Positions 8,629-57,793 of a stretch of 64,000 bases of DNA are shown piece after piece; positions within the stretch are counted from its first letter, which is position 1, and each line of letters opens with the position of its first letter. The position numbers and the translations under genes were made by a program. The notes below the pieces were generated by a model. That model made no database searches, was not told the origin of the DNA, and saw nothing but the letters and a program-made list of their open reading frames with translations. Source of the DNA: Salipaludibacillus neizhouensis (lineage in GTDB: Bacteria > Bacillota > Bacilli > Bacillales > Salisediminibacteriaceae); the NCBI RefSeq assembly GCF_002886185.1, contig NZ_KZ614146.1, positions 3,361,556 through 3,425,555 of the forward strand, read 5' to 3'.

Positions 8629-8781
8629 GAAAAACGGCATAGCCGTCTTTTATTAAATACAGCGTCAGCTTCCACCGCCCCGAGTAGCACCTACGAAGTG
8701 CGTGTAGGTGCTACTCGAAAGGACGGTGGGTTTCCCTTGATACGTGCGGTGTGAAGGTAGCAGCCAATTTTATAAATTCTC
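8629..8781 (+). repeat. family 1 hairpin repeat, copy A (with palindromic insert)
   Basis: Starts with ACGGC-ATA-GCCGT-CTTTT, then ATTAAATACAGCGTCAGC, an outer arm TTCCACCGCC, a perfect 14-bp palindrome CGAGTAGCACCTAC / GTAGGTGCTACTCG (8681-8717), the residual arm TTCCCTTGATAC and the closing outer arm GCGGTGTGAAGGTAGC, ending in AATTTTATAAATTC. The same order recurs at 10841, 23445, 26749 (inverted), 28538, 53221 and 57676. Confidence 0.9.
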
Positions 8782-8783
8782 CT

Positions 8784-8862
8784 AAAAAACGCGTAGCGCT
8801 TTTTATTAAATACAGAGTGAGCTTTCGCTATCTAAAGAACCGATAATTTTATAAATTCTTGT
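8784..8862 (+). repeat. family 1 repeat, shortened copy
   Basis: Follows copy A directly: AACGCGTAGCGCTTTTTATT, ATACAGAGTGAGCTTTCGC, then TATCTAAAG and AATTTTATAAATTC. The central hairpin is missing. Confidence 0.75.
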
Positions 8863-8877
8863 AAAATCAACGTTACT

Positions 8878-9084
8878 TTAATCTTCTAACAATTTTCCTT
8901 CAAAAACAATTCTTTGATGAGAAACTTCAATTTCTATTTTCCCGTTTTTCTTCACTTCTTTAAGCACCGGTTCTTCCATCCGATGGACAGGAGTATAACC
9001 ATCATTTTTCATTCTATCTAAGCAAGCATCAATGGATTCATTTTCCTCCACATAAAAACGTTGTTTCTTCTTTTTATCTGCCAT
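8878..9084 (-). CDS. NETI-motif small protein (YebG-like)
   Basis: 68 residues from ATG 9084 behind GAGGGGAATGAG; a longer frame lacks a ribosome site. After a Lys-rich start it reads FYVEENESIDACLDRMKNDG then YTPVHRMEEPVLKE, the signature of the short NETI-motif proteins of Bacillaceae (the usual ENETI is ENESI here). Function unknown. It stands alone between a repeat cluster and the bpsAB pair, on the same strand as the latter. Confidence 0.75.
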   Translation of the reverse strand: MADKKKKQRFYVEENESIDACLDRMKNDGYTPVHRMEEPVLKEVKKNGKIEIEVSHQRIVFEGKLLED

Positions 9085-9174
9085 AATCTCATTCCCCTCA
9101 TCATTAAACTTATAACGTTTATTCAATCTAAGGGTAATATACCGTAAATAACCAGTATCATCAATGTATGTCCT

Positions 9175-9681
9175 TTACCCTTCCCCCAGTGCTCTTTCTT
9201 CTGCAGGAATTCTTATAAGCAGTAAAAACAAGGCATTAAATATTGAAAATAATACGGCAGTAACATAAGCTTGAAATAAAAGTGGAAAAAGCACTAATTC
9301 TAACGTTACTATAAGATAATTCGGGTGGCGCAACTTGGAACTGTAGAGACCTTCCGTGATTCTTTTTTCGCCGGGAATAACAAGGATTTTTGTATTCCAA
9401 AACTTTCCGAGCGTGGTTAGCATCCAGATCCTTAGCCCTTGTAATAACACATATCCGAGTAATATTACGAACCAGTATGGGTGAAGAAGCTGTGCCCCAA
9501 TCGTCCATTCTAAGGCGATAAAGAGAAAATATCCTACATGCATTCCAACTAGCCATTTATAGTGAGCTTGTCCATATTCCAACGCCCCTTTTTCTCGCAT
9601 CCATTCTTCATTACGTTTTGCAATAATGACTTCACTAAGTCGTTGCAGTACAACTAGCCCCCATAAAATCCAAAAAATCAT
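9175..9681 (-). CDS. bpsB: alkylpyrone O-methyltransferase, isoprenylcysteine methyltransferase family
   Basis: A 168-residue membrane protein (about five helices) with the ICMT-type C-terminal block: LGKFWNTKILVIPGEKRITE, GLYSSKLRHPNYLIVTLELV and IPAEERAL. In B. subtilis the homolog (YpbQ/BpsB) methylates alkylpyrones made by BpsA. ATG 9681 overlaps the bpsA stop codon (ATGA), which fixes both the start and the operon; a longer in-frame start at 9723 would lie inside bpsA. The same size as the B. subtilis protein from memory. Confidence 0.88.
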   Translation of the reverse strand: MIFWILWGLVVLQRLSEVIIAKRNEEWMREKGALEYGQAHYKWLVGMHVGYFLFIALEWTIGAQLLHPYWFVILLGYVLLQGLRIWMLTTLGKFWNTKILVIPGEKRITEGLYSSKLRHPNYLIVTLELVLFPLLFQAYVTAVLFSIFNALFLLLIRIPAEERALGEG

Positions 9682-10766
9682 GATCCTACCTCTCTCCATT
9701 CCAATAGTAGAAGCTCTGAACAAAATCCCGGTCCTAATGCGGCCATTAATCCCTTTTCTCCGTGTACAGTCTTGTGTTCCATTATTTTTTTCAATACATA
9801 CAGTACGGTAGGAGAAGACATATTTCCATGATTTTGAAGAACCTTTCTCGATGTTTCCGTCATCTCTTCCGAAAAAGTCAGAGCTTGTTCATAAGCTTGT
9901 AAAACTTTTTTACCACCTGGGTGAGCGACGAAATAACTAATATCTTGCAGGTCAATTTTATTCAAAGAGAGAAATTCCTCTACATTCGGTTTCAACCATT
10001 TTTCAATAACATTTGGAATGTTTCGCGAAAAAACAACGTTTAAACCGTTCTCTTTAAGATCCCATCCCATAATATCTTCTGAGTCTTGCATAAACGTCGA
10101 TTGTGATGCCAGAATAAACGGCAATTTTTTTTGCTTGAATTCCATGCTATTAGCAGCAGTATCCCCAACAATTAGTGCGCATGCTGCCCCATCACCGAAC
10201 AAAGATGTTCCTACTATATTACTTTTCGAAATATCTTCTTTAGAAAAAGTTAAACTGCAGCATTCAACACATACTACAAGTACTTTGGCTCGGGGATATG
10301 CCAGACAATAATCATAGGCACGACTTAGTCCAGCCGCTCCACCAGCGCAGCCAAGTCCCCAAATGGGAATCCGTTTCATGTGAGGTGAAAAGGAAAGTTT
10401 GTTCATCATTTTTGCATCAATAGTAGGTGTCGCAATTCCTGAGCTTGAAATGTAAAATATGGCATCAACATCAGATACAACTGTTTCATCCACTTTTTCT
10501 AAACAAGACCGAATTACTTTCACGCCAAGCTCTACTGCAACTTCTACATATCTTTCATTTTTTTCTGCAAACGTGTGATCCTCTTTAAACCAAGACATTG
10601 GCGCTGACAATTGCCGTTCTTCTATTCCACTAGAATCAAATACTTTAATCATTCGATCTATTGCTGAATAGGATGGTTGAAAGAGATCATAAATAAGTCC
10701 TTTAATTTCTGCTTGTGTATATTTAAAGGGAGGATTCTCTGTTGTGACAGAAACAATTGCAGGCAA
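9678..10766 (-). CDS. bpsA: type III polyketide synthase (alkylpyrone synthase)
   Basis: 362-residue member of the chalcone/stilbene synthase fold. The catalytic triad is readable: Cys140 in IWGLGCAGG, His282 in FVAHPGGKK and Asn315 in NHGNMSSPT. BpsA enzymes condense a long acyl-CoA with malonyl-CoA units to give triketide alkylpyrones in the membrane, which BpsB then methylates. Translationally coupled to bpsB by a 4-nt overlap. GGAGGG precedes the ATG. A family 1 repeat lies upstream between it and pbuG. Confidence 0.93.
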   Translation of the reverse strand: MPAIVSVTTENPPFKYTQAEIKGLIYDLFQPSYSAIDRMIKVFDSSGIEERQLSAPMSWFKEDHTFAEKNERYVEVAVELGVKVIRSCLEKVDETVVSDVDAIFYISSSGIATPTIDAKMMNKLSFSPHMKRIPIWGLGCAGGAAGLSRAYDYCLAYPRAKVLVVCVECCSLTFSKEDISKSNIVGTSLFGDGAACALIVGDTAANSMEFKQKKLPFILASQSTFMQDSEDIMGWDLKENGLNVVFSRNIPNVIEKWLKPNVEEFLSLNKIDLQDISYFVAHPGGKKVLQAYEQALTFSEEMTETSRKVLQNHGNMSSPTVLYVLKKIMEHKTVHGEKGLMAALGPGFCSELLLLEWREVGS

Positions 10767-10840
10767 TTAAAGCCCTCCTTCATAAGAATGATGGCATATC
10801 TTGCCTTTATATTGTGTTAATTACACTGTTTTCATCCAGT

Positions 10841-10964
10841 AAGAAAAACGGCATAGCCGTCTTTTATTAAATACAGCGTCAGCTTCCACCGCCATCTTTA
10901 AAGTATCAAGGGTGGACTTCCCTTGATACGTGCGGTGTGAAGGTAGCTGCCAATTTTATAAATT
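10841..10964 (+). repeat. family 1 hairpin repeat, copy B (prototype)
   Basis: Carries all three hairpins: ACGGC-ATA-GCCGT-CTTTT; outer arms CAGCTTCCACCGCC and GCGGTGTGAAGGTAGCTG; and the inner stem TATCAAGGG / CCCTTGATA. Ends CCAATTTTATAAATT. Confidence 0.9.
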
Positions 10965-10980
10965 ACCTTTTTAAAAATAA

Positions 10981-11022
10981 AAAAGACACTGAAAAAGTAT
11001 GATCTACTTTTTCAGTGTCTTT
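10981..11022. terminator. bidirectional terminator after pbuG
   Basis: About 17 bp: AAGACACTGAAAAAGTA / TACTTTTTCAGTGTCTT with a 5-nt loop and T/A tracts on both sides. Confidence 0.85.
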
Positions 11023-11048
11023 CCATTACTCCACTATTCTATAGTTTT

Positions 11049-12356
11049 TTATAAAAATACAAAATAAAGAACAAACACAACCAACAAACCGTACATCACT
11101 GGATGCACTTCCTTCGCTCTTCCTTTACATACCATCGTAATAGGATACATGATGAAACCTAAGGCGATACCTGTTGCGATACTGTATGTTAACGGCATTG
11201 CAATAATTGTGAAGAAAGCCGGCACTGCAATCTCAAATTTTTTCCAATCAATATTAGATAGCGACGATGCCATTAATACACCAACTACGATTAGCGCTGG
11301 AGCTGTAACAGCCTCTGTTACAACAGCGAGTAATGGTGAAAATAATAAAGCAACCAAAAACAGTATACCTGTAACAATCGATGCAAAACCAGTCCGGGCC
11401 CCTGCCGCTACTCCTGATGAAGACTCAATATAAGCAGTAGTAGTAGAAGTTCCTAAAACAGCTCCAATCGCCGTTGCAGAAGAATCTGCTAAAAGTGCTT
11501 TCTCAGCTCGTGGAAGCTTGTTGTCTTTTATAAAACCAGCTTGATTTGCTACAGCATACATTGTTCCAGCTGTATCGAAAAAGTCTACGAATAAAAATGT
11601 TAAAATAACGATCATCAATTGCAGTGTGAAAATTTCACCAATTCCCATCTCTGCGAAAGGTGCAAAAGCCGCTCCAAAAGTAGGGGCAAGACTAGGTACC
11701 GCACCAATTACTTGTTGTGGAAATGGAACTGCACCAAAAATCATTCCAACTACGGAAGTAATCACAATTCCGTAAAAGATACCGCCCTTAAGTCCTAAAC
11801 TCATTAAAACAACAGTGATAATGACACCAAAAACTGCTAACAACGTTTGTGGTGCACCTAGATTCCCTATTTCTACAAGTGTTGCTTCAGAAGCAACAAC
11901 TATTTCAGCATTCTGCAAACCTATAAAAGCAATAAACAAACCAATACCGGCTCCAGCAGCATATTTTAATTCAGCTGGAATCGCGTTAATAATAAATTCC
12001 CGGACGCCAACTAGCGAGATAATAATAAAAATAATACCTGAAACAAATACTCCTAGTAACGCAGTTTCCCAAGGTATACCCATCCCCAAAACGACGGAGT
12101 ATGTGAAAAATGCATTTAATCCCATTCCTGGTGCTAAAGCAATCGGGTATCGTGCAACAACCCCCATTATAATAGTACCAATTGCTGCAGCCACTGCTGT
12201 TGCAACAAATACTGCACCTTGATCCATACCAGCGTCCATTAAAATTAATGGATTAACAAATAAAATATAAGCCATTGCTAGGAACGTGGTGAATCCACCC
12301 ATGATTTCATTTTTGTAATTTGTTCCTAATTCTTCAAATTCAAAGTAACGTTGCAT
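11049..12356 (-). CDS. pbuG: guanine/hypoxanthine permease, NCS2 family
   Basis: 435-residue inner-membrane purine importer with about twelve hydrophobic segments. FEELGTNYKNEIMGGFTTFL and AYILFVNPLIL at the start, ALAPGMGLNAFFTYSVVLGM and LFVDFFDTAGTMYAVANQAG are typical of AzgA/PbuG-type transporters; the N terminus is closer to PbuG than to PbuO. AGGGGAG precedes the ATG. The leader contains a guanine-type riboswitch and a terminator, so expression should fall when guanine is plentiful. It is downstream of guaA on the same strand with its own promoter. Confidence 0.92.
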   Translation of the reverse strand: MQRYFEFEELGTNYKNEIMGGFTTFLAMAYILFVNPLILMDAGMDQGAVFVATAVAAAIGTIIMGVVARYPIALAPGMGLNAFFTYSVVLGMGIPWETALLGVFVSGIIFIIISLVGVREFIINAIPAELKYAAGAGIGLFIAFIGLQNAEIVVASEATLVEIGNLGAPQTLLAVFGVIITVVLMSLGLKGGIFYGIVITSVVGMIFGAVPFPQQVIGAVPSLAPTFGAAFAPFAEMGIGEIFTLQLMIVILTFLFVDFFDTAGTMYAVANQAGFIKDNKLPRAEKALLADSSATAIGAVLGTSTTTAYIESSSGVAAGARTGFASIVTGILFLVALLFSPLLAVVTEAVTAPALIVVGVLMASSLSNIDWKKFEIAVPAFFTIIAMPLTYSIATGIALGFIMYPITMVCKGRAKEVHPVMYGLLVVFVLYFVFL

Positions 12357-12438
12357 GTCCCAAACTCCCCTTTTTCTTTATATTTTTAGTCTTCCCACAT
12401 TTAACCTCATACAGACTTCAGCTGAACGAGTTTAAACA

Positions 12439-12478
12439 TAAAAAGCCCCGTCTTCACTAGATGGAAGACTAGGGCTTT
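12439..12478 (-). terminator. riboswitch-controlled terminator of pbuG
   Basis: On the minus strand AAAGCCCTAGTCTTC pairs with GAAGACGGGGCTTT followed by T residues, about 75 nt downstream of the aptamer. Confidence 0.85.
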
Positions 12479-12552
12479 CCTGTTTCTATACGTAATAATA
12501 AAAGAAGAAGTGTACATACAATTGAACACTACACCAAACCTTCTTTTACCAT

Positions 12553-12617
12553 TCGTAGTAGAGCTATTTACGGCAGCTCGGTAGAAACTTTCGGGCCCTA
12601 TTCCCAAAAATATACGA
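12553..12617 (-). ncRNA. purine riboswitch aptamer (guanine type) for pbuG
   Basis: The minus strand carries P1 arms TCGTA / TACGA, the conserved AAGTTTCTACCGAGCTGCCG block and TAAATAGCTC. The J3/2 segment reads CTACTACGA with C at the specificity position, which marks guanine/hypoxanthine rather than adenine sensing. A terminator follows before the permease start, so ligand binding should switch transcription off. Confidence 0.93.
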
Positions 12618-12640
12618 AATAAATAAAATTTATAATAGTT

Positions 12641-12670
12641 AGTGTAGCATTACATTATTAAAGCCGTCAA
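12641..12670 (-). promoter_or_regulatory. promoter of the pbuG riboswitch transcript
   Basis: TTGACG, 18 nt, TACACT on the minus strand, ending 24 nt upstream of the aptamer. The -35 box lies in one arm of a 9-bp inverted repeat CGTCAATAT / ATATTGACG (12665-12694) that might also act as the guaA terminator. Confidence 0.55.
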
Positions 12671-12735
12671 TATAAAACACGAATAATATTGACGTTTCCA
12701 CTAATTTCATTCGTTTTTTGTACAATTTAACTATT

Positions 12736-14274
12736 TTACTCCCACTCAATTGTGGAAGGTGGCTTCGATGTAATGTCATAAACAACACGGTTTACGCTCT
12801 TTACTTCATTAACAATACGAGTCGAAATGATCTCCAACACATCATACGGAATTCTTGCCCAATCAGACGTCATTCCATCTATGGAAGTAACTGCACGGAT
12901 ACCAACAGTATAATCATACGTACGTTCATCACCCATGACTCCAACACTTTTCATATCCGGAAGTGCAGTAAAGTACTGCCAAATTTCACGATCAAGCCCT
13001 GCTTTTTTAATTTCATCACGAAGAATCGCATCTGATTCTCGAACAATTTCAAGCTTCTCGTCTGTAATTGCTCCCAATACCCGAATTCCAAGACCAGGTC
13101 CAGGGAATGGTTGACGCCATACTACTTCATCCGGTAAGCCTAACTCCGCTCCAACAATCCGAACTTCGTCTTTAAATAACGTATTTAGTGGTTCAATTAA
13201 TTCGAACTTCATGTCTTCTGGCAGACCACCAACATTGTGGTGGGATTTGATCGTTTGAGCAGTATCTGTTCCACTTTCAATAATATCAGTATAAAGTGTT
13301 CCTTGAGCTAAGAAATCAACATCTACTAATTTTGAAGCTTCTTCTTCAAATACATAGATAAATTCATTACCAATAATTTTTCTTTTTTGTTCAGGGTCTG
13401 TAACCCCGGCCAACTTCGATAAAAAGCGATCTTGAGCATCTATTTTCACAAAATTCATATCGAAGCCTTCACCAAATGTTTTAACAACGCCTTCAGCTTC
13501 ATCTTTTCGTAAAAGTCCGTGATCGATGAACATACAAATTAATTGATCACCTATCGCCTTATGCACCAAAGCTGCTACGACTGAAGAATCTACGCCACCA
13601 CTCAACGCACATAATACTTTACGGTTGCCAACTGACTCACGAATCTTTTCTACTTCCATGTCAATAAAGTTTTCCATGGACCAGTTACCTTCGCATTTAC
13701 AAACCCTGTAAATGAAGTTTTTGAGCATTTCATTACCATATTCTGAATTACGCACTTCAGGATGGAACTGTACGCCATACAACCCGCGACTTTCATCACT
13801 CATTGCTGCTACTGGACAAGAAACATTCGTAGCATCTACAGTGAAACCTGCTGGCGGTGCTTTCACAAGATCACCATGACTCATCCAAACTGTTTGCTCC
13901 TTTGGTAGTGTATTAAATAGTTTAGACTCGGTTTCAATCGTGATTTTTGCTTTTCCGTATTCGCGGTGATTCGAAGCTTCCACGCCACCGTCATAATGGT
14001 GAGTCATCAGTTGCATCCCATAACATATTCCTAGTACTGGAACATCTAAATCAAAGATTGCTGCGTCATAACGAGGGGCACCCTCAGCATAGACGCTTCC
14101 TGGACCTCCGGATAATATAATCCCACTCGGGTTCATTGCCTTCAATTCCTCCGCAGTGACCTTATGAGATACTAATTCGCTAAAGACCCCTAAATCACGG
14201 ATACGCCTCGCAATTAGTTGATTGTATTGTCCACCAAAATCCAACACAATTATCTTTTCATTAATTTCAACCAT
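12736..14274 (-). CDS. guaA: GMP synthase (glutamine-hydrolysing)
   Basis: 512 residues, the usual length. It converts XMP to GMP in the last step of guanine nucleotide synthesis. N-terminal class I glutaminase with the nucleophile in [11 protein letters not shown] (Cys84) and FHPEV; then the ATP-pyrophosphatase P-loop [14 protein letters not shown]; then the dimerisation domain ending PSTIEWE. ATG 14274 has GAGGTGG upstream; an upstream extension to 14313 is unsupported. A guanine riboswitch with terminator sits in the leader, so GMP synthesis and guanine uptake respond to the same signal. Confidence 0.97.
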
Positions 14275-14305
14275 ATCAATTCCACCTCTACTATTTAATT
14301 TAAGA

Positions 14306-14320
14306 GACTGCAAAGCAGTC
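14306..14320 (-). other. small hairpin in the guaA leader
   Basis: GACTGC-AAA-GCAGTC, a 6-bp stem followed by a T-poor stretch, between the family 1 fragment and the guaA ribosome site. Confidence 0.4.
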
Positions 14321-14336
14321 CTTTATGTTAATAAAA

Positions 14337-14353
14337 ACGGCATAGCCGTCTTT
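14337..14353. repeat. family 1 fragment (terminal hairpin only)
   Basis: ACGGC-ATA-GCCGT flanked by AAAAA and CTTTTAAT; symmetrical enough to act as a weak terminator on either strand. It lies within the guaA leader downstream of the riboswitch terminator. Confidence 0.7.
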
Positions 14354-14357
14354 TAAT

Positions 14358-14417
14358 AAAAAAAGCTGTAAATCAATCTTCGTACATAAAAAAATACGAA
14401 GACAGAATTTCCAGCTT
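14358..14417 (-). terminator. riboswitch-controlled terminator of guaA
   Basis: On the minus strand AAAGCTG...TCTTCGTA pairs with TACGAAGA...CAGCTTT and is followed by seven T residues. Confidence 0.85.
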
Positions 14418-14443
14418 TACATCGAAGAAAGAAATATCTGCCT

Positions 14444-14508
14444 TCATAGTCAGGTTGTTTAAGGCAACCCGGTAGAAACTCTTGAGCCATATTCTCAAGG
14501 ATATATGC
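14444..14508 (-). ncRNA. purine riboswitch aptamer (guanine type) for guaA
   Basis: The minus strand reads GCATATATCC, GAGAATATGG, the conserved AGTTTCTACCGGGTTGCC, AAACAACC, then TGACTATGA with C at the specificity position. All three helices can form. A terminator lies 27 nt downstream, so guanine or hypoxanthine should reduce guaA transcription. Confidence 0.93.
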
Positions 14509-14609
14509 GGCAATTACAGTTTTAATTTCATTGAAGCTCCAGTTAGACGATATCCAAGACCATTCGCTTTCACTTAACTGATTCATTTTATCAAGTGATC
14601 TTCACGTGG

Positions 14610-19829: not shown

Positions 19830-19925
19830 CTATCGAAAACCGACTATTTTTTCTTTCATTTACTCGCTCATGCTCTCGTTTTCTACCTACTTTTGTAGGT
19901 GCTACACCGGTAGCACCTACCCCTC
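19830..19925 (+). repeat. family 2 hairpin repeat (TAGGTGCTAC type), single unit
   Basis: Reads GGTAGCACCTATCGAAAACC, then CTCGCTCATGCTCTCGTTTT and the near-palindrome GTAGGTGCTAC-ACCG-GTAGCACCTAC. It is the same unit as the tandem array at 31107-31409. Confidence 0.75.
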
Positions 19926-20015
19926 CCCGAAAAATCAACCCAGCATACAAAACAAGAACCCCCTCTTTATAAAAGAGAGGATTCCACTATTTAACGAGTT
20001 TCCTATGTTTTCACT

Positions 20016-22329: not shown

Positions 22330-22451
22330 ACGACGATTGAACGACGACTGAACGGCGTGGAACTATCTGAATTATCAATGTGTATTTTTAAAATATGTAG
22401 TAACCGCTTACTAATCTATGTTATGGTAAATATAAGAACTTAATAAGTAAT

Positions 22452-22540
22452 TGCTAGGGGAGCCACCGTGATGTGATGGCTGAGAGGAACAACCGCCGAC
22501 CCTTTGAACCTGAATTGGTTAATACCAACGTAGGGAAGCA
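22452..22540 (+). ncRNA. TPP riboswitch (THI element)
   Basis: Contains CTAGGGGAGCC, GGCTGAGAGG, ACCCTTTGAACCTGA and GGTTAATACCAACGTAGGGA in the standard order. A terminator follows before thiG. Thiamine pyrophosphate should switch the downstream thi operon off. Confidence 0.96.
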
Positions 22541-22581
22541 TAGATGAACTAAAGTAGAATCTTCTATTATATGTTTATTAT

Positions 22582-23600: not shown

Positions 23601-23670
23601 TGTAAGAAAAACGCATACCGTTTCTAGAACCTGTCCGATCCTAAAATATATTCAATGAAAAGGTGATTTA

Positions 23671-26744: not shown

Positions 26745-26748
26745 AAAG

Positions 26749-26871
26749 AGATAATTTATAAAATTGGTAGCTACCTTCACACCGCAAGTATCAAGGGAAA
26801 CCCACCCTCCTTTCGAGTAGCACCTACACGCACTACGTAGGTGCTACTCGGGGCGGTGGAAGCTGACGCTT
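26749..26871 (-). repeat. family 1 hairpin repeat, copy E, inverted
   Basis: Reverse-oriented copy with the CGAGTAGCACCTAC palindrome (26814-26850). The outer arms GCGGTGTGAAGGTAGCT and AGCTTCCACCGCC are intact, but the end carrying the ACGGCATAGCCGT hairpin is missing. Confidence 0.88.
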
Positions 26872-26909
26872 TCCCCTTCTTCAAGTTTCCTTTTCCAAAA
26901 TAAGAGGGA

Positions 26910-28537: not shown

Positions 28538-28650
28538 TAAGAAAAACGCGTAGCGTCTTTTCTTAAATACAGCGTCAGCTTCCACCGCCATTTTTTAAGT
28601 AACAAGGATGGGTTTCCCTTGTTACGCGCGGTGTGAAGGTAGCTGCTACT
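28538..28650 (+). repeat. family 1 hairpin repeat, copy F
   Basis: ACGC-GTA-GCGT-CTTTT end hairpin, outer arms CAGCTTCCACCGCC / GCGGTGTGAAGGTAGCTG, and inner stem GTAACAAGG / CCTTGTTAC. Compared with copy B both arms of the end and inner hairpins have changed while pairing is kept. Confidence 0.9.
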
Positions 28651-28665
28651 TTTTTCAGATTGAAA

Positions 28666-28697
28666 AATCCACTATGAGAGTTTTCTCATAGTGGATT
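28666..28697 (-). terminator. terminator of the sortase gene
   Basis: AATCCACTATGAGA / TCTCATAGTGGATT with T residues on the minus strand, 15 nt after the sortase stop. Confidence 0.85.
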
Positions 28698-30838: not shown

Positions 30839-31045
30839 GTTGAAACACTCTCCCTTTAGTTTGTTTTAATTTGCTTTCACCCAAGATAACGGAAGAGAGA
30901 TCAATATGGATCACTATTTTCAATAAAAAATTATTGTTGTTTCCTAGAACGCTGATATATCAATGTTTAATGGGGTTAAATATTTTTAATAAAACTAGTA
31001 ATGTTTCGTTTTTTTTTGTTAGTTTTTGTAGTTGCTAGATCGTTA
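30839..31045. other. upstream region of the surface protein gene
   Basis: About 200 nt with an AGGGAGAG ribosome site near the gene and AT-rich sequence. The element GGAAACAAC near 30940 (minus strand) is reminiscent of an ECF-sigma -35 box but no matching -10 was found. Confidence 0.3.
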
Positions 31046-31409
31046 GCAATGTTTTCTGCGACGAAAGTAATCGCAGGAGCAGCTGCTGATAACTTCACTC
31101 TTCAATCTCCCTCATCCTCACTCATTCGCTCGTTTTCTACGTGCTACTTTTGTAGGTGCTATCCCGGTAGCAATTTTTTCTGCGACGAGTAACCGCAGGA
31201 GCACCTACCGATATTCCTCCTCTTCTATCTCCCTCATCCTCACTCATTCACCCGTTTTCTACGTGCTACGTTTGTAGGTGCTACTCCGGTAGCACCTACC
31301 GATAATTCCACTCTTCTACCTCCTTCATCCTCACTCATTCGCTCGTTTTCTACGTGCTACGTTTGTAGGTGCTACTCCGGTAGCACCTACCGACAACTTC
31401 GACGAGTAA
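31045..31409 (+). repeat. family 2 tandem array of TAGGTGCTAC hairpin units
   Basis: Three head-to-tail units begin at 31107, 31229 and 31320, each with CTCATCCTCACTCATTC, CGTTTTCTACGTGCTAC and the hairpin GTAGGTGCTAC-TCCG-GTAGCACCTAC (first unit variant). Lengths are about 122, 91 and 90 bp; the first has an extra 31-nt segment with CTGCGACGAG and CCGCAGGAGC. A more diverged partial unit containing that same segment lies at 31045-31106. Confidence 0.88.
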
Positions 31410-35325: not shown

Positions 35326-35363
35326 ACAAAAGCTACTGCTTTCTTAACCATGAATTTTTAAAA

Positions 35364-35518
35364 GCTCGAAGTAGCGAAGTCGGCTACTCCTGCGGGATTA
35401 GCAATAGCTGAAGACCCCGCAGGGACGAGCGTTACTGGCAGAGGAAGAGACACATTTCTTAGTCCGAGGAGACTGAAGCAGTGCCCGCGGAAAGCGTCCA
35501 CTTAGAGCTGATTCGAGC
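35364..35518 (+). repeat. family 3 repeat (CCGCGGAAAGCG type)
   Basis: Bounded by GCTCGAA and TTCGAGC. Internal blocks are GTAGCGAAGTCGGCTACTCC, TGCGGGA, GCTGAAGACCCCGCAGG, GAGGAGACTGAAGCAGTGCC and CGCGGAAAGCGTCC. Intergenic repeats of this type occur, from memory, in many Bacillaceae genomes. Homologous to 60047-60171. Confidence 0.85.
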
Positions 35519-35552
35519 ACCTCACAATCTAAAAAGAAACAAGTTTTAAAAA

Positions 35553-39417: not shown

Positions 39418-39688
39418 CTTTCCTCACTCCCCCTATTAAACATCCTCAGCTCATAGGAAACCCGGCTGCCTTAAACATATTCTTCTTTATGTTCTTAGGC
39501 CCGTAGCTTTGCGTCGCTACCTTTCAGTAGGTTTGCCTTTGTCTATTAGAAGGTACTACTAAATTCTAGTAATTGACCATCCGGCTCTGATTTAATGTTG
39601 CGTTCTATTATTCACTATAGAATACAAAGGTTAAAATGAGGTTAAATAAATAAAATTTCGATAACTTTTTTATGACAAAAAAAGACAA

Positions 39689-46252: not shown

Positions 46253-46369
46253 AGTACCCCTCCTTGCATTAAGATCAGTTTCCATTTGCTGAGTATTTTC
46301 TAATGGTTTTAGTATAACTAAAATTGATACAAGAAACCTAATAGAAGCTTTGTTAGTTAAGTAAGTGCG

Positions 46370-46450
46370 TAGTGTATTTTGTTATATACTGCGTGATTTT
46401 TCGCCACCCCGGGTAGCTCCTCTAAATCGCATCTAGGTGCTAGACCCTCC
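46370..46450 (+). repeat. degenerate family 1 copy
   Basis: ATATACTGCGTGATTTTTCG, CCACCCCGGGTAGCTCCTCT and ATCTAGGTGCTAGACC are decayed versions of the copy D sequence including its palindromic insert. Confidence 0.6.
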
Positions 46451-46548
46451 AATATATTCAATAAAAATAAATGAATAATTGTACTATCACTTTCTAGGCA
46501 CATGTTGCATATAACACAGTAGACAATATTACGGAGAGGAATGTTTAG

Positions 46549-50398: not shown

Positions 50399-53206
50399 TT
50401 AAAACAAACGTAACCAGCTTACTTTAACAGCACCTTTTATAATGACATATACATGTTGACTCCCATTTACCTGTGATAAATCTACTTCTAGTTCCTGCCA
50501 ACTATTCGACTTTTCAATGGAAACATTACCAATTATTTTTCCATCTTGATTTCCAAGTCTGATCTCTATTTCTCCATTACTTGTGTTTGAATATACTTTA
50601 GTTTTGAATCGTGTTGTCCTTTCACCAAGATCAACATCGTGAAAAGCTATCCAACTCTCTTTCTCTGACGGACGTACACAGTATTCCTTTCCTTCCCCTT
50701 CGTCCAAGATAACATTCGTGTAGTCATCATAATTTATCGCTTTAATACCATTAGACATTTTTCGTAAAGGAATTGTTTCTCCTTCAACATTCAAATCGAC
50801 TTCTGCTATTATATTTGCTGAAGAACTCCCTATCATTAACGTGTAAGTGTCTTTTTCCACACAATATCTTTCTCGCGTCACATCCCAAATTTCCAACTCC
50901 GAAATAGGTAGTGTAAATTCTACACGTTTACTTTCCCCTGCTTTTAGAAAAATCCTGTTGAATCCTTTTAATGTCTTTATTGGTCGCTTCACACGAGATT
51001 TATTCGCTTTAACATATAGCTGAACGACTTCTTCACCAGCCACTGCACCACTATTTTCAACATCAACCGTTATTGTCACTTCGCTGCCTAATTTAACATT
51101 TCTCTTACTTAGGACCACCCTACTATATTTAAAATCAGTATAGCTTAATCCATGACCAAAAGGATAAAGGACTTCGCCATCAAAGTATTGGTACGTTCGT
51201 TTCCCCTTTATAACATCATAATCCTTGATATCCGGTAGCTGTTCTATGGAACGGTACCAGGTCATACTCAACCTTCCAGCAGGATTATAATCCCCGAAAA
51301 GCACATCAGCAACAGCAGAGCCTAACTCAGGCCCCGCATGAGATGTATACATGACTCCTGGAATATTCTCTTCACACCAATTTACTGCATAAGGATAACT
51401 CCCTACTATGACTACAACCGTGTTAGGATTGACTTCCTTGACAGAACGAATAAGCTCTTCTTGAGCCGGTGGTAAAATGATATCATCCCGATCAATTTCT
51501 TCTTTCCCGTTAATAAATGGATTATTCCCCACAAATACCACAGCTGTATCTGCCTCTGCAGATGCTTTTATCGCTTCTGCGAGGCCATCTATTACCATTT
51601 CCACGTGATAGTAATCTGATCCTAGAGTATCTCCACTATCTTGTACAAAAAGCCGTCTATCTTTTCTAGCACTAATTGCTTTTCCATTCCATGATGTTAA
51701 CCGGTGATTGTTCCCTTCTCCTTCAAAGCTAACTATTTCCTTTACAAACCACCCACGGGTTTCTTCTGCAGTAGCCGTAAGTGATTCATCTCCAGCAGTC
51801 ACAAACTTACCAGTAGTTAGTGATTTCAATGTTTGACTTCCAAAGCCCCAATCGATCAGTTCGAACAATTCTGCTTCTTCCGCATTTTCTTGATTTGCTA
51901 CGAGAGCTTTTTCTTCCGAGCCATCAAGAGTGATATATTGACCCGTATGTTTTGAACGGATACGGACACACTTACTACCATTTTTTAAAACAACATTGTC
52001 ACGCCCAATCTTGTTTTGAATACCTTCTAGAGGAGTCACCCGATATGTAGGCGTTCCACTATACCAGTCAATATGAACCTCATTTGCTAACGGTCCGATA
52101 ACAGCAACCGAGTTAGTTTTTTCTTTATTCAATGGTAGGATCCCATCGTTTTTTAATAACACTATTTGCTCCTGTGCTGCACGATATGATAATTGCAAAT
52201 GTTCAGGCGCGAGTAATGTTGATTCTGAGATATGTGCATATGGATTTTTATCTGGATCAAATTCACCAAGGCGGAATCTTACCCCAAAAGCATTATTTAA
52301 AGCAATGTCTAAGTCGCTCTCTTCTAACAAATCCTGTTCTATCGCATTACGAATAGCTTTGATTGAAATTTCTGCATCATCTGTAATACTATCTACTCCA
52401 CTTTTAATCGTGCTTGCCAATGCCTTCGCATAGTGATCGTAATATTTGTGATCATTGACAATTCCTAATACATCTCCTGCATCACTTACAATAAAACCAT
52501 CCATTCCCCATTCATCTTTGACGATTTCTTTCACATAAGGATGTAAAAGGGCAGGTGTTCCATTAATGGAATTATACGCAGTCATCATCGACTTCGCCTT
52601 CCCTTCCACTATCGCAGGTTTAAATGCTTTCAAGTAATATTCATACATATTTCGTGGATCTATACTAGCTGAGCACGATCCACGATCAATTTCGTTATTA
52701 TTACCTAAAAAATGCTTTAATGTTGCCACTGATTTAAAGAAAACTGGATCATCACCTTGCATACCTTTTACTAATTCTTTCGTTAATTGACCTGTTAATT
52801 CCGGATCCTCTCCATAGGATTCCTCAGTTCTCCCCCATCTAGGATCCCTTTCCATGTCCACGGTCGGTGCCCAAAGAGTAAGGCCGTTCACGGTTGGTTC
52901 CTTTTGAAAAAATACTCGTGCTTCATCACCAATAACTGTTCCAATTTTCTTCATTAATACTGGATTCCACGTATTCGAAAGCCCAATATTTTGTGGGAAA
53001 ACAGTTGCTTCTCCTAGCCAAGCAATACCGTGAGCAGCTTCAGTCCCTTGTTTATAAGCACCTACTCCAAGCCTAGAAACTTCTGGCTGGTGTTGCATCA
53101 TTAGCTCAATTTTTTCATCAAGAGTAAATCGTGAAACTAAGTCTTTCACTCTTTCATCAAATGGTAAATCTGAATTTTGGTAACTATATTTTTCTGTTTC
53201 CGGCAA
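50399..53206 (-). CDS. GH3 beta-glucosidase/beta-xylosidase with trefoil-like insert and C-terminal CBM6-like domain
   Basis: 935 residues, no signal peptide. Catalytic barrel (TEAAHGIAWLGEATVFPQNI; KHFLGNN; nucleophile Asp242 in GFIVSDAGD). Between the barrel and the second sheet domain, residues about 410-540 form an extra segment with CVRIRSKHTGQYITLDGS and LKSLTTGKFVTAG, like a fascin-type beta-trefoil. The second domain resumes with AVVFVGNNPF and DIILPPAQEE, then a fibronectin-like domain and a CBM6-like end (about 830-935). Cleaves beta-linked glucose or xylose from oligosaccharides. A cytoplasmic location is inferred. Confidence 0.88.
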   Translation of the reverse strand: MPETEKYSYQNSDLPFDERVKDLVSRFTLDEKIELMMQHQPEVSRLGVGAYKQGTEAAHGIAWLGEATVFPQNIGLSNTWNPVLMKKIGTVIGDEARVFFQKEPTVNGLTLWAPTVDMERDPRWGRTEESYGEDPELTGQLTKELVKGMQGDDPVFFKSVATLKHFLGNNNEIDRGSCSASIDPRNMYEYYLKAFKPAIVEGKAKSMMTAYNSINGTPALLHPYVKEIVKDEWGMDGFIVSDAGDVLGIVNDHKYYDHYAKALASTIKSGVDSITDDAEISIKAIRNAIEQDLLEESDLDIALNNAFGVRFRLGEFDPDKNPYAHISESTLLAPEHLQLSYRAAQEQIVLLKNDGILPLNKEKTNSVAVIGPLANEVHIDWYSGTPTYRVTPLEGIQNKIGRDNVVLKNGSKCVRIRSKHTGQYITLDGSEEKALVANQENAEEAELFELIDWGFGSQTLKSLTTGKFVTAGDESLTATAEETRGWFVKEIVSFEGEGNNHRLTSWNGKAISARKDRRLFVQDSGDTLGSDYYHVEMVIDGLAEAIKASAEADTAVVFVGNNPFINGKEEIDRDDIILPPAQEELIRSVKEVNPNTVVVIVGSYPYAVNWCEENIPGVMYTSHAGPELGSAVADVLFGDYNPAGRLSMTWYRSIEQLPDIKDYDVIKGKRTYQYFDGEVLYPFGHGLSYTDFKYSRVVLSKRNVKLGSEVTITVDVENSGAVAGEEVVQLYVKANKSRVKRPIKTLKGFNRIFLKAGESKRVEFTLPISELEIWDVTRERYCVEKDTYTLMIGSSSANIIAEVDLNVEGETIPLRKMSNGIKAINYDDYTNVILDEGEGKEYCVRPSEKESWIAFHDVDLGERTTRFKTKVYSNTSNGEIEIRLGNQDGKIIGNVSIEKSNSWQELEVDLSQVNGSQHVYVIIKGAVKVSWLRLF

Positions 53207-53220
53207 GATAATCTCTCCTT

Positions 53221-53349
53221 AAGAAAAACGGCATAGCCGTCTTTTATTAAATGCAGCGTCAGCTTCCACCGCCATCTTTTAAGTAGCAAGGGTGGGGTTC
53301 CCTTGATACTTGCGGTGTGAAGGTAGCTGCCAATTTTATAAATTCTTAT
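53221..53349 (+). repeat. family 1 hairpin repeat, copy H
   Basis: ACGGC-ATA-GCCGT-CTTTT, outer arms CAGCTTCCACCGCC / GCGGTGTGAAGGTAGCTG, inner stem GTAGCAAGGG / CCCTTGATAC with one mismatch. Lies between GH31 and GH3 genes, against the direction of the operon. The remaining gap to 53525 shows no other feature. Confidence 0.9.
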
Positions 53350-53525
53350 CTCTTAAAAAAAACTACGAACATCGTCTATTTATTATGTTAAACGTATAAA
53401 TACGCTTACAATATCGAAACTTTTCTTCTGAAACTCAAATGAAAGCTAGAGACACTCTTTCGAGATCCTCGCTAGTTTTCAACTTATAACATTGTTTTAT
53501 ATGTCCTCGGCTAATTAACTGTCTC

Positions 53526-55853
53526 TTAATCTTCCAAAGGTATAACAAAGTATGTTTGATCACCTTCTGGTATGAGAAGTTTTATACCTAAAGAAGTTTT
53601 TTCGATAATTGTACCTTGGACTGAACCCACTGTATGAAAGCCTCTCAGCACCACACTCCATGGTTTCGAAGGTTGCTTGTTTAAACTAACTGTGATCGCA
53701 TCCTCTTGTTTCGTCATTGTTACGGTGAATTCTTCTTCACCCTTAACATTAGTAACCGTGGTTGTAGCACTTTTTTTCAGTTGAAACACGTGCAATTCAA
53801 CATTCTCGGCATAATCATAATCTGGTCTCGAATTTTCTGCTCCAATTGCAACAACCGCATTAGGTCGTACAAATAGTGGGAGACTCAAATAATCATGTTT
53901 TTCCTTGAACCAAGTACCACCTTGAACCGTTTCATTTGTAAAATAATTCGTCCATGTTCCTTTAGGTAAATAATAGGAAACGACTCCGTCTTCATTAAAA
54001 ATAGGTGCAACTAATAATGAGTCACCGAACATATATTGACGGTCTAAATGGTCACATGTGGGATCATTGGAAAATTCAAGTAGCATTGCTCGCATTATTG
54101 GTAGGCCGATATCAGCAGAATGAACGGCAGATTGATATAAATATGGCATTAATTTGCATTTTAATTTTGTGAAATGCCTGACCACTTCAACAGACTCCTC
54201 GTCGTAAAGCCACGGGACACGATATGATGTACTTCCATGCAGCCTGCTATGGCTGGAAAGTAAGCCGAAAGCCGCCCATCGTTTATATAAATCAGCTGGA
54301 GCTGTACTTTCAAATCCTCCGATATCATGGCTCCAAAAGCCAAAACCCGATAATCCTAGAGATAATCCACCACGAAGACTTTCCGCCATCGATTCATAAG
54401 TTGCGTTACAATCACCGCCCCAATGTACTGGAAATTTTTGACCTCCAGCTGTGGCTGAACGAGCAAATAATGTCGCTTCTCCCTTACCTAGCTTATCTTC
54501 CAATAATTCAAATACCTTTTTGTTATAGATAAAAGAATAATAGTTGTGCATTTTTTCAGGACTGGAACCATCATGGTAAACAACGTCCGTAGGAATTCTT
54601 TCACCAAAGTCGGTTTTAAAGCTATCTACGCCCATGTCTAATAGTTTGTTTAAATGCCCGTTGTACCAGTCACATGCCTGTGGATTTGTAAAATCTACGA
54701 TTCCCATTCCTGGCTGCCACTTATCCCATTGCCAAACATCTCCGTTGGCTCTCTTTAATAAATATCCTTTTTCCACTGCTTCATCAAAAAGATGGGATTG
54801 TTGCGAAATATAAGGATTAATCCATACACATATCTTCAATCCTTTCTCCTTTAATCGAGTCAACATCCCTTGAGGATCCGGAAAAACATTTTTATCCCAT
54901 TCAAAATCACACCACTTTAATGCTTCCATCCAAAAACAATCAAAATGAAAAACACTCAATGGTAAATCTCTTTCTGACATGCCATCTACAAAGCTATTAA
55001 CTGTAGCTTCGTCATAGTCAGTAGTAAATGAGGTTGTCAGCCATAACCCAAAAGACCACGCAGGTGGTAAAGCTGGCTTACCAGTCAAAGAAGTATAGTT
55101 TTCTAATACTTTTTTTGTTGAACCTCCACCAATAATGAAATACTCCAATGATTCTCCTTCGACGCTAAATTGCACCTTTGATACTTTTTCAGAGGCCACT
55201 TCAAAAGAAACATTTTCAGGATGGTTTACAAATACTCCGTATCCCTGATTAGATAAATAGAAAGGAATGTTTTTATAGGATTGTTCAGAACTAGTTCCGC
55301 CATCTTTATTCCACGTGTCTACCACTTGACCATTTTTAACAAATGCAGTAAATCTTTCACCGAGACCATATACATTTTCACTAACCGATAAATCAAGTTC
55401 TTCGCGCATATATGTAGCCTTATCTACGCCAGTAACATGAGCCATCCCTTTAAATCCGCTGCCTGTTATACGTTTATGATCATTGAAGAATTGTACTCCC
55501 CAACCGTTTAATTTATCCAATTCTACTGCCAGACTTCCACTTTTTAGAGAAATTTTCTCGACCGTTTCCTGAATATCTACAGCCACATTTTCCTGAGCGT
55601 TGATTGAGAACTCAGGCCCTCTTTTTTTAATTCCTTTATGATGAACAACTTTAACACGAATCACTTCCTCCATAGGAGATGAATAGTTCACCGTTAATAC
55701 CGGTAGATCAAGTTGCGCTGACCTTCTGCTTACATCTTCTGGTGTAGCTAGTACGCTTAACGATTTGTCATCATAAGAGGATTGAAATAAATAAGCTGCG
55801 CTAATAAGGTCATATCCCTCTTTAATTAACCAGTTACCATCTGTAAATTTCAT
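53526..55853 (-). CDS. alpha-xylosidase, GH31 (YicI type)
   Basis: 775 residues. Removes terminal alpha-1,6-xylose from xyloglucan oligosaccharides and related glycosides. N-terminal beta domain, then the barrel with SFGLWLTTSFTTDYDEATVN, HFDCFWMEALKWCDFEWD, the nucleophile Asp415 in GVDSFKTDFGERIPT, and FARSATAGGQKFPVHWGGDC plus GLSGFGFWSHDIGGFE. These blocks follow E. coli YicI nearly residue for residue from memory. No signal peptide, so oligosaccharides must be imported first, matching the ABC genes upstream. Confidence 0.93.
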   Translation of the reverse strand: MKFTDGNWLIKEGYDLISAAYLFQSSYDDKSLSVLATPEDVSRRSAQLDLPVLTVNYSSPMEEVIRVKVVHHKGIKKRGPEFSINAQENVAVDIQETVEKISLKSGSLAVELDKLNGWGVQFFNDHKRITGSGFKGMAHVTGVDKATYMREELDLSVSENVYGLGERFTAFVKNGQVVDTWNKDGGTSSEQSYKNIPFYLSNQGYGVFVNHPENVSFEVASEKVSKVQFSVEGESLEYFIIGGGSTKKVLENYTSLTGKPALPPAWSFGLWLTTSFTTDYDEATVNSFVDGMSERDLPLSVFHFDCFWMEALKWCDFEWDKNVFPDPQGMLTRLKEKGLKICVWINPYISQQSHLFDEAVEKGYLLKRANGDVWQWDKWQPGMGIVDFTNPQACDWYNGHLNKLLDMGVDSFKTDFGERIPTDVVYHDGSSPEKMHNYYSFIYNKKVFELLEDKLGKGEATLFARSATAGGQKFPVHWGGDCNATYESMAESLRGGLSLGLSGFGFWSHDIGGFESTAPADLYKRWAAFGLLSSHSRLHGSTSYRVPWLYDEESVEVVRHFTKLKCKLMPYLYQSAVHSADIGLPIMRAMLLEFSNDPTCDHLDRQYMFGDSLLVAPIFNEDGVVSYYLPKGTWTNYFTNETVQGGTWFKEKHDYLSLPLFVRPNAVVAIGAENSRPDYDYAENVELHVFQLKKSATTTVTNVKGEEEFTVTMTKQEDAITVSLNKQPSKPWSVVLRGFHTVGSVQGTIIEKTSLGIKLLIPEGDQTYFVIPLED

Positions 55854-55880
55854 AATCTCAAGACTCCTATTCTAAAGATT

Positions 55881-55904
55881 GGACCCTATGAAATCACAGG
55901 GTCC
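55881..55904 (-). terminator. intercistronic hairpin after the binding-protein gene
   Basis: GGACCCT / AGGGTCC, 10-nt loop, no T run. The same kind of GGxCC hairpin follows the other binding-protein gene at 423-463. Confidence 0.45.
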
Positions 55905-55930
55905 TTCTATTTTTAGTTGCATTATTACAG

Positions 55931-57634
55931 TTACTCTTCGTCCCACAATTCAATTCTTTTTTGAATCAGTTTAGTAAATTCCTGCTCCATCTCTTCCACG
56001 CCATGACCTTCTAATTCCTCCATAAAACGGTCATATACCTCATCAAATTCATCTTCGTCAGCTAAAATCGCCTCTGGTATTCGCGTCATCATTGTATCTT
56101 CCGCTCGTTGGAATGGAACAGCGATTGGTGAATCTGAGCTCCAATTTATTTCCCAACCTGCTCCCCAAGGTTTCACAGGGAATTCATCTGATGAGGGAAA
56201 GAGATCTGCCCATATTTCTGCATCATAAGCCGCCAGAACCTCTTTTTCTTTGTCTGTATAATCCTCAACTACCGTTTCCGGAGTATTAATTGTGAAAGGT
56301 TGACCTTCTGAATCCAGGACGCCATCTCCATAGTTCGGACCATATGCTGTAAAAACATTTATACCTGTTCTTTCATTAAATTTACTATCACTTAAACGCT
56401 CTTCCCGTTGTTCTTCTGTAAGATGACGATTTCCTTCATCATCATATTGATAATGTTCGCCTTCAATTCCCCAGTTGTTTAAGATTTGAGCTTCCTCTGA
56501 AGCCATCCAGTCCAGGAATTTAATAGCACGAACTGGGTCAGGGTTATCAACTGTGATCCCAATTCCCCATTCTGCTAAATAACCAGCGTCTTGAAAGTTT
56601 GCTTGTTTAAATGTGTCATCTAAGGTTACAGGGTAAATTCCGTGCATTCTTTCTTGCTTCCCGTCTTCTCGGAGAGCTGTTTGTGCATCAGCTATAGACC
56701 ATTCAGCATCTATCATTCCAAGAACACGCCCAGAAGATATTTTAGAAATATACTGATCTTCCTGCTGTACAAAAGTTTCCGGATCTAGTAATCCTTCGTT
56801 GTTCATATGATTTAACCAGCGGAAATACTCACGCTCTTCTGGTCTTCGATAATGTAAAATTGCTTCTTGAGTTTCATGATCAATAAACCATTCTCCATCA
56901 TCAGATCCGCCTGTGGCAAAAAAAGCGGGGTTTGTCACAGAGATAAGCATGCGCCAATCATCAGCAAGTAGAGATAATGGTATTGTCGGTTGCCCATCAA
57001 TTTCCGGATACATTTCATAGTATTCCGCGATAGCATTTTCAAAGTCTTCCAATGTATTAATTTCCGGATAGCCTAACTCTTCTACGACAGCATGCTGTAA
57101 CCAAAATCCATTTCCTGGAGACCAATACTCTTGATCAACGCCGTTCGTTCCTAGGAAGTAAATAGCATCATCATCCTCACTCCAAGTCATCCGATCCAAA
57201 TAGTCACCATATACCTCTTTAATATTCGGTCCATGTTCTTCAATTAATGGACGTAAATCTACCATTGCTCCTGCATCCACCATTAATCCGCCATCACCTT
57301 TAGGTAAGATAAAATCAGGATAATCACCACTCGCAGCGAACAAAGAGATTCTTTCAGCAGGATCACCAAGTGCAAAATCAGCATCTAGGGATACTCCTGT
57401 AGCATTTAAAATCTCTTGACCAACTGGACTGTCCATCCCATTCCAACTTGGATTGTCATCCGCTGCAAATACTGAAAATTCGATTTCTGAGTCACTCATT
57501 TCATCATTGCTAGTCTCATTGTCGCCATCATTATTGTTCGTTGATGTTTCTTCAGAATTACTGCATGCTGGAACGAATAAAAATAAACTCACAATGATAA
57601 AAACTCCATAAAACCCCTTATACTTTCTACTCAT
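55931..57634 (-). CDS. extracellular oligosaccharide-binding lipoprotein (LplA/LipO type)
   Basis: 567 residues. Lipoprotein signal FIIVSLFLFVPACSNSE, acidic linker, then a large solute-binding fold: SEIEFSVFAADDNPSWNGMD, NATGVSLDADFALGDPAERI, FILPKGDGGLMVDAGAMVDL and AIKFLDWMASEEAQILNNWG. The length is typical of the LplA group that works with YtcP/YteP-type permeases and no dedicated ATPase (an MsmX-like ATPase elsewhere is usual). Its gene lies between the permease and hydrolase genes. Confidence 0.9.
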   Translation of the reverse strand: MSRKYKGFYGVFIIVSLFLFVPACSNSEETSTNNNDGDNETSNDEMSDSEIEFSVFAADDNPSWNGMDSPVGQEILNATGVSLDADFALGDPAERISLFAASGDYPDFILPKGDGGLMVDAGAMVDLRPLIEEHGPNIKEVYGDYLDRMTWSEDDDAIYFLGTNGVDQEYWSPGNGFWLQHAVVEELGYPEINTLEDFENAIAEYYEMYPEIDGQPTIPLSLLADDWRMLISVTNPAFFATGGSDDGEWFIDHETQEAILHYRRPEEREYFRWLNHMNNEGLLDPETFVQQEDQYISKISSGRVLGMIDAEWSIADAQTALREDGKQERMHGIYPVTLDDTFKQANFQDAGYLAEWGIGITVDNPDPVRAIKFLDWMASEEAQILNNWGIEGEHYQYDDEGNRHLTEEQREERLSDSKFNERTGINVFTAYGPNYGDGVLDSEGQPFTINTPETVVEDYTDKEKEVLAAYDAEIWADLFPSSDEFPVKPWGAGWEINWSSDSPIAVPFQRAEDTMMTRIPEAILADEDEFDEVYDRFMEELEGHGVEEMEQEFTKLIQKRIELWDEE

Positions 57635-57675
57635 TTGATAATCCCCCTTAAATTTTTAACTGAAATTAAAGTGTT

Positions 57676-57793
57676 TTAAAACGCGTAGCGTCTTTTATTA
57701 AATACAGCGTGATCTTTCGCCACAATCATTTACGTGTCAAGGGTAGATTTCCCTTGATACGCGTGGCGTAAAGATAGCTGTCAATACCTAAAT
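57676..57793 (+). repeat. family 1 hairpin repeat, copy I
   Basis: ACGC-GTA-GCGT-CTTTT end, outer arms GTGATCTTTCGCCAC / GTGGCGTAAAGATAGC, inner stem GTGTCAAGGG / CCCTTGATAC. Occupies nearly the whole gap between permease and binding-protein genes and touches the permease stop codon. Confidence 0.9.

Follow-up and report, generated by a model that had tools for sequence, protein, structure and literature searches.

What is the intergenic repeat that recurs along a stretch of 64,000 nucleotides in the genome of Salipaludibacillus neizhouensis (contig NZ_KZ614146.1, positions 3,361,556 to 3,425,555, hereafter called the window)? An original prediction, made from the letters of the window, had described seven copies with three hairpins and proposed three options: a small mobile element moved in trans, a terminator or other 3′ element of messenger RNA, or a structured RNA. 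We conclude that the repeat is probably a non-autonomous mobile DNA element that goes in behind intrinsic terminators, on the template of the lagging strand, and can stack behind its own. The mobile option is the best supported of the three because of the dispersed copies, their patchy occurrence, the existence of element-free orthologous spacers, the site preference and the replication-strand bias.

Anatomy of the element

The seven-copy repeat is real. All seven copies of the window were recovered by a repeat search and by a covariance model (CM), built from copies of the source genome (G000) and of one second genome; the window copies 53220–53351 and 10840–10971 are themselves among its seed sequences. 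A core word, allowed up to 3 mismatches, gave 8 matches in the window versus a mean of 0.00 in 100 shuffles.

The original prediction read the repeat from what proved to be its far end. The informative reading direction, called R below, is that of the window minus strand, 5′ to 3′. Read along R, the element is a non-coding unit of 120–160 bases, with approximately AGATAAGAATTTATAA at its 5′ end, followed by an outer stem with internal loops, an inner hairpin, a spacer, and an A-tract/hairpin/T-tract. At the 3′ terminus the T-tract is followed by CTTA, the element ending in TTTTTCTTA. The outer stem is made of CAGC/GCTG, an internal loop, and then either CTTCACACCGC/GCGGTGGAAG or CTTTACGCCAC/GTGGCGAAAG.

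A single plan had been proposed for all seven copies. It holds for four of them (type A), whose inner hairpin is GTATCAAGGG/CCCTTGATAC, whereas the three at 8626, 23441 and 26746 form a second type (type B), where a hairpin of about 35 nt, GAGTAGCACCTAC..GTAGGTGCTACTC, stands in place of one inner-stem arm. Similarly, the small end hairpin was seen in both variants described, ACGGC/GCCGT and ACGC/GCGT (a third, ACCGC/GCGGT, is found in G025, a genome of another genus), but not in every copy, as it is missing at 26746. The open reading frame list agrees with the statement that all copies are intergenic, except that thiG takes its TAA stop codon from the end of the 23441 copy.

At the 3′ boundary the change is abrupt, with information dropping from 1.56 bits at the last base to 0.16 at the next (154 copies). 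The 5′ edge is softer (100 copies), and some copies have altered or truncated 5′ ends. Four copies of the source genome (C2:204724, 480922, 502045 and 797991) have a common altered 5′ start, ATACACCAGAATTTAT instead of GATAAGAATTTAT, and are perhaps a sub-lineage with its own junction.

Copies start behind T-tracts and terminators

A search of the source genome (5.5 Mb) for one outer-stem arm, with at most 2 mismatches, gave 254 matches, versus 10 for the reversed control, hence about 245 copies. Stretches around 144 places gave 176 nhmmer profile matches, 154 of which were anchored and form the counted set. This set was drawn from several place lists, one of which contributes only the first 100 of the 254 pattern matches, and it retains at least one spurious overlap (C3:334629 +), one very weak match (C1:669695), and about four copies with a misplaced 5′ anchor, including the window copy at 10840. 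Gene contexts of the copies rest on a home-made gene caller.

Of the 154 copies, 77 have a hairpin with a T-tract immediately 5′ of the element; for the opposite flank, with the other strand read, the number is 13 of 154 (p 2.6e-16). When copies preceded by an own-type terminator were left out, the proportions were 58/122 on the 5′ side versus 11/122 on the other. They were 24/46 versus 6/46 for copies between convergent genes, which have a gene end on either side. Another counting window gave a terminator at 83 of 154 copies versus 53 of 757 control positions. Two other genomes behaved likewise, with 5′-side terminators in 15/23 versus 0/23 rows for G025, and 11/17 versus 2/17 for a separate family in G010; these rows are loci with ends found by fuzzy patterns (23 rows from 33 G025 loci, 17 from 28 G010 loci), and at least one is spurious (L323 +).

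The 5′ flank itself is up to 86% T (100 copies), and the T-tract persists without the own-type-terminator copies (T in 65 of 77 at the peak). A word resembling the element's end, TTTTTYTTW, is present in 34 of 154 flanks versus 1 of 914 control positions. Own-type terminators precede 35 of the 154 copies, which are thus stacked (such neighbours were counted in slightly different windows, 32 being left out for the set of 122). In short, the copies start just behind a T-rich tract, about half of them with a recognisable predicted terminator hairpin.

At the other end, 60 copies face the end of an opposing gene. In 17 of them the element's terminal TTA coincides exactly with the stop codon of that gene, whereas the next commonest spacing occurs in 4. 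The thiG genes of congeners end at the corresponding place, by eye. A Shine-Dalgarno-like word occurs within 8 nt of the 3′ end in 11 of 154 copies.

Orientation relative to replication

The leading strand of the source genome was assigned from binned GC skew, all of C3 being taken as one block. Ten copies, on C4 or in the unclear 1.3–2.0 Mb part of C1, were set aside, so that 144 of the 154 were used. R was the leading-strand sense, which is that of the lagging-strand template, in 123 of these 144 copies (123:21). The ratio was 61:2 when both neighbouring genes run along R, 37:8 between convergent neighbours (p 1.5e-5), 8:3 when both run against R (p 0.23), 6:3 between divergent neighbours (p 0.51), and 11:5 when the gene context was cut by the end of the stretch. 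The convergent class therefore indicates that the bias is more than gene direction, and it is the only class to show so alone.

In G025, 49 of the 52 copies listed, from a total of at least 97, fit two half-chromosomes with an origin near 3.0 Mb, which none of 2000 shuffles equalled (best shuffle 42); GC skew agrees at 6 of 6 20-kb stretches. For the G010 family, 41 of 42 places fit a split at 2.95 Mb, with the split point read from the data and the places hand-picked from 101 rows so that each cluster gives one, with stacked copies and matches of the palindromic end hairpin on the opposite strand excluded. R thus corresponds mostly to the lagging-strand template.

Distribution and element-free spacers

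At the family level, a model search at E ≤ 0.001 found matches in 6 of 35 genomes: at least 97 in the source genome and at least 97 in G025, 7 in G034 (best E 1e-4; 76% complete genome), 5 in G010, 3 in G032 and 2 in G008. At the same threshold, none of the seven congeners of the source genome (7/7) had a match. Order-wide, with stricter filters, 3 of 299 genomes matched at E ≤ 1e-6, the source genome included. In a separate search, four further genomes had one short match each (21–29 bases, E ~1e-3), regarded as chance. A 25-base pattern had 0 matches in named genome contigs and 0 in viral contigs, near records being possibly absent from the set searched. Six G025 copies taken from the top matches share 94% mean identity, which suggests that they spread not long ago.

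The comparison with relatives that the original prediction called for revealed orthologous spacers without the element. Behind the gene at 11049–12356, several congeners have a terminator-like hairpin and no element (e.g. L204, from G007, where both neighbours are kept), and the thiG–thiH spacer is free of it in three congeners (G001, G004 and G006). No longer, autonomous version was seen in the 160 bases upstream of 22 partial matches and in stretches of 3 kb, a range within which one could be missed.

A conserved fold

Paired changes on both arms, which had been reported for the seven copies, exceeded both shuffled and slid controls. In the seed set (23 distinct sequences), both-side changes affected 8 of 29 pairs, with 28 cells versus 6.3 in shuffles. 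Among 122 distinct model matches (96 sources), they affected 23 of 29 pairs, with 206 cells versus 60.7, a number reached in 0 of 500 shuffles, and 94.9% of the cells of this alignment were paired versus at most 51.9% when slid. A single copy of the set supplied the tested structure, to which the alignment was fitted, so that the counts lean towards the structure; for this reason, and because two subfamilies carry part of the signal, they are not counts of independent events. RNAalifold, run on a first, poor alignment, gave only 11 pairs, and the later counts use a structure set by hand. Fold z-scores of four window copies were −3.9 to −5.6, and that of a decayed piece at 8780–8870 was not significant (−0.83).

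The fold is supported by the paired changes and appears conserved. The structured RNA option is not shown by the wobble counts: wobble pairs exceed A-C mismatches when counted by cell (88 versus 50), but not by pair column (11 versus 10), so that either strand may fold, as RNA or as DNA.

A probable mobile element with its own landing site

The element appears to be a small mobile DNA that brings its own target site along. A folded single strand, DNA or RNA, would be joined behind a hairpin and T-tract by a trans-acting enzyme, at a time when the lagging-strand template is exposed, and this hairpin and T-tract would be recognised both as the end of the element and as its target. Each new copy would then bring a hairpin and T-tract of its own and make a new target, so that copies stack. 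Landing behind a terminator probably does the host next to no harm, which would allow copy number to rise.

Several observations weigh against this explanation. No enzyme has been tied to the element. Orientation and terminators both track leading-strand genes, and the convergent test, which removes much of this, relies on 45 copies and on the home-made gene caller. By our crude test, 77 of the 154 copies have no recognisable 5′-side terminator. Among the 34 TTTTTYTTW flanks, 21 belong to stacked copies, leaving 13 among the 119 others, with the exact TTTTTCTTA in only 4. As most of these flanks are own-type stacks, the target is a T-tract that is not shown to be a copy of the element's end; that it copies this end is only suggested. 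Target duplication is not clear, with 3-mers in 0 of 50 cases versus 0.43 expected (2-mers, 9 versus 3.1; 4-mers, 2 versus 0.59; largest excess in an offset scan, 12/154 versus 2.4). Inverted terminal repeats reach at most 6 bases by eye (TAAGAA/TTCTTA). Finally, neither strain-to-strain insertion polymorphism nor a base-exact empty site was seen, the congeners being too far diverged.

Candidate enzymes and other explanations

A first alternative, possible but rather doubtful, is that a single-strand transposase of the Y1/HUH class, akin to TnpA-REP (RAYT), moves the element in trans; REP elements are assumed to be moved in this way. The use of the lagging-strand template, the lack of a clear target duplication and the end hairpin beside the cut site all fit the habits of single-strand transposition. 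Y1_Tnp matches were found in all four carrier genomes tested (G000, G008, G010 and G025), but the same search also found them in 10 of 13 other genomes, so that their presence is not discriminating. None of the Y1 genes examined (L231–L240) is adjoined by element ends, the one copy in L231 lying about 1.6 kb away, and the GTAG/CGTC words expected of such a system fail in subfamily 2, which by eye has GATA/CGTG instead.

We consider it unlikely that the element is an RNA that parasitises retrotransposition, mobilised in trans by ribonucleoproteins of class C group II introns. These introns have the same target and strand habit, according to PMC8919778, and a sharp 3′ end combined with altered or truncated 5′ ends fits such a process. 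Matches to TIGR04416 number 13 in the source genome (5 above the cut-off) and 11 in G010, and reverse transcriptase matches occur in G008 as well. However, G025, with its 97 copies or more, has no match to TIGR04416 or PF00078 (RVT_1) at E ≤ 0.001, although loss of the enzyme is possible; so many copies without a detected reverse transcriptase make the retro and DNA routes separable. In addition, a scan of the window with Rfam at gathering score gave four riboswitches only, and no group II ribozyme RNA (domain V).

Slightly less probable still is a 3′ element used by the host, as a backup or bidirectional terminator or an RNA stabiliser, which would have spread earlier, be kept by selection and no longer be mobile. 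The terminator-like end hairpin and the kept pairs are consistent with it, and pneumococcal SPRITE repeats have been proposed as co-opted terminators (PMC3049150). The terminator option of the original prediction stands to this extent: a predicted terminator-like hairpin forms one end, and copies usually lie behind a predicted host terminator. Yet there is more to the unit than a 3′ element belonging to a gene. Many copies lie behind an existing terminator, where a second one looks redundant, differently sequenced families fill the same niche in other genera, and the lack of a match in all seven congeners also argues against host use.

Passive or gene-neighbourhood duplication without a mobile element is very improbable despite the existence of tandem copies, since the shared flanks that the original prediction had named as its mark are not there (0.03–0.30 bits in the 20 bases past the 3′ edge, 154 copies), and opposite orientations on the two replichores contradict it.

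A possible wider class of similar families

The weak matches in G010, G032, G034 and two genomes of other families (L330 and L331) correspond to other sequences which, by eye, follow the same plan: two stems, outer and inner, are followed by an A-tract/hairpin/T-tract that ends at or close to TTTTCTTA. The G010 family gave 101 BLAST matches, pieces included, has a 5′ part like GATAAGAAAGTATAAA, and obeys the rules of site and orientation described above. We tentatively propose, with somewhat less than even confidence, a class of non-coding elements in Bacillales that home to host terminators on the lagging-strand template, moved by one conserved machinery, single-strand or transcription-coupled, that would recognise a hairpin and T-tract as end and as target. 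Its members would be the element of G000 and G025, the G010 family, the G034/G084/G075 type and the G032 type; they have little sequence in common, and both shared descent and convergence could account for them.

If true, such an element would land at a terminator of the kind that it carries, and so would spread into nearly harmless places while making new ones. The positions of its copies would document where terminators lie and which way replication runs, and the stacks of structured repeats in such genomes would be explained. This raises the question of which enzyme recognises a hairpin and T-tract as single-stranded DNA or RNA.

Features of the window and neighbouring repeats

Positions of the copies and of associated units are given in Table 1.

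Table 1. Copies of the element and associated hairpin units in the 64-kb window.
Feature	Positions	Strand	Remarks
Type B copy (GAGTAGCACCTAC hairpin inside)	8626..8785	-	CM 102.7 bits
Second, decayed unit; end hairpin and T-tract directly before the 8626 copy on the minus strand	8786..8870	-	Repeat search; fold z −0.83
Type A copy, complete	10840..10971	-	CM 159 bits, seed member; 3′ end (CTTA) at 10840, 5′ end near 10971; fold z −5.55
Terminator-like hairpin (host) belonging to the gene that ends at 11049	10982..11022	-	Read directly; T-tract runs into the 10840 copy
Solo end-hairpin unit or degenerate copy (eighth unit)	14329..14439	-	CM 39.4 bits; repeat search
Type B copy; terminal TTA is the thiG stop codon	23441..23600	-	CM 87.8 bits
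End-hairpin remnant with T-tract, behind which the 23441 copy sits	23604..23640	-	Repeat search
Type B copy, inverted, between convergent genes, end hairpin missing	26746..26870	+	CM 49.1 bits over 26746–26898
Type A copy, 4-bp end hairpin ACGC/GCGT, altered 5′ end	28538..28668	-	CM 125.5 bits
Decayed partial copy	46362..46452	-	Repeat search; nhmmer 17.4 bits
Type A copy, complete	53220..53351	-	CM 160 bits, seed member; AGGAGAG and TTG start directly after 3′ end
Type A copy of subfamily 2 (plus-strand arm GATCTTTCGCCAC) that has lost its TTTTTCTTA end	57672..57802	-	CM 111.8 bits

A second repeat family, made of palindromes GTAGGTGCTAC..GTAGCACCTAC, occupies positions 19863–19926 and 31024–31391 of the window, with near-tandem copies of about 107 nt at 31066–31385 (repeat search). 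In two congeners, G002 and G003, the 19844–19926 stretch is matched at many places, partly in tandem. The inner hairpin of type B uses words of this second family, so that the two families may have exchanged parts. In one hybrid copy of the source genome (C1:3182248, L130), the 5′ part is replaced by the second family.

A further dispersed repeat, AAAAGATCGAAGTAGCGAAG ... TGCCCGCGGAAAGCGTCC, is found at 35360–35523 and 60043–60176, and a related word, CTTCGCTACTTCGA, abuts some elements (C1:103176, 2216366 and 3543692). The window also contains two purine riboswitches on the minus strand (12536–12637 and 14427–14528), less than 2 kb apart, one of them just upstream of a xanthine/uracil-type permease gene, as well as a TPP riboswitch (22446–22553) and a c-di-GMP-I riboswitch (39453–39547).

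Comparison with known systems

At gathering score, Rfam has no family for the element, and no family match spanning the whole element emerged when three loci were searched at relaxed settings. Among mobile DNAs, group II introns of class C land just after rho-independent terminators, with a preference for the template of lagging-strand synthesis (PMC8919778). The element shares the terminator site, although half of its copies show none by our test, and the strand bias, in all three genomes where orientation was counted. It differs in its size, too short to encode a reverse transcriptase, and in its own terminator-like end.

According to PMC6006769, the lagging-strand template is the target of IS608 and ISDra2, which also carry subterminal secondary structures. 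Members of the IS200/IS605 family, and REP sequences with their TnpA-REP/RAYT proteins, are likewise small, folded and extragenic; in contrast, the element is longer and three-stemmed, and its site is a terminator. Insertion of IS200/IS605 or REP elements takes place 3′ of a fixed short target and duplicates none of it; the element is preceded by a T-tract rather than a fixed word, and shows no clear target duplication. REP sequences are marked by a constant GTAG or CGTC, left unpaired at the foot of the hairpin (PMC3733652); the element lacks such a constant tag, these words being present in subfamily 1 only.

SPRITE, BOX and RUP of Streptococcus pneumoniae are also intergenic repeat families read as parasitic, and SPRITE is described in PMC3049150 as one 18-bp duplex with a uridine-rich tract, terminator-like and near the 3′ ends of genes. 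Compared by descriptions only, the element differs from SPRITE in having outer and inner stems plus an end hairpin, and in lying behind a host terminator in replication orientation.

A miniature inverted-repeat transposable element of a DDE transposon is not supported, the inverted ends being short and a fixed-length target duplication not clear. The bcr repeats of the Bacillus cereus group, of which bcr1 is said, in a title, to have characteristics of a mobile element, are likewise intergenic, in a group of Bacillus. They were a first guess, set apart without sequence comparison on indirect grounds only: there was no blastn match among plasmids, and the nearest named ThiH relatives of the source genome, a Bacillus metagenome-assembled genome and Pontibacillus marinus (77%), lie outside that group.

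No description of a non-coding element combining these properties, with a terminator as its own end, was found among open-licence papers, several of the searches being narrow. Taken separately, the properties are already known: terminator targeting in class C introns, lagging-strand targeting in IS608 and ISDra2, and terminator-like repeats in SPRITE.

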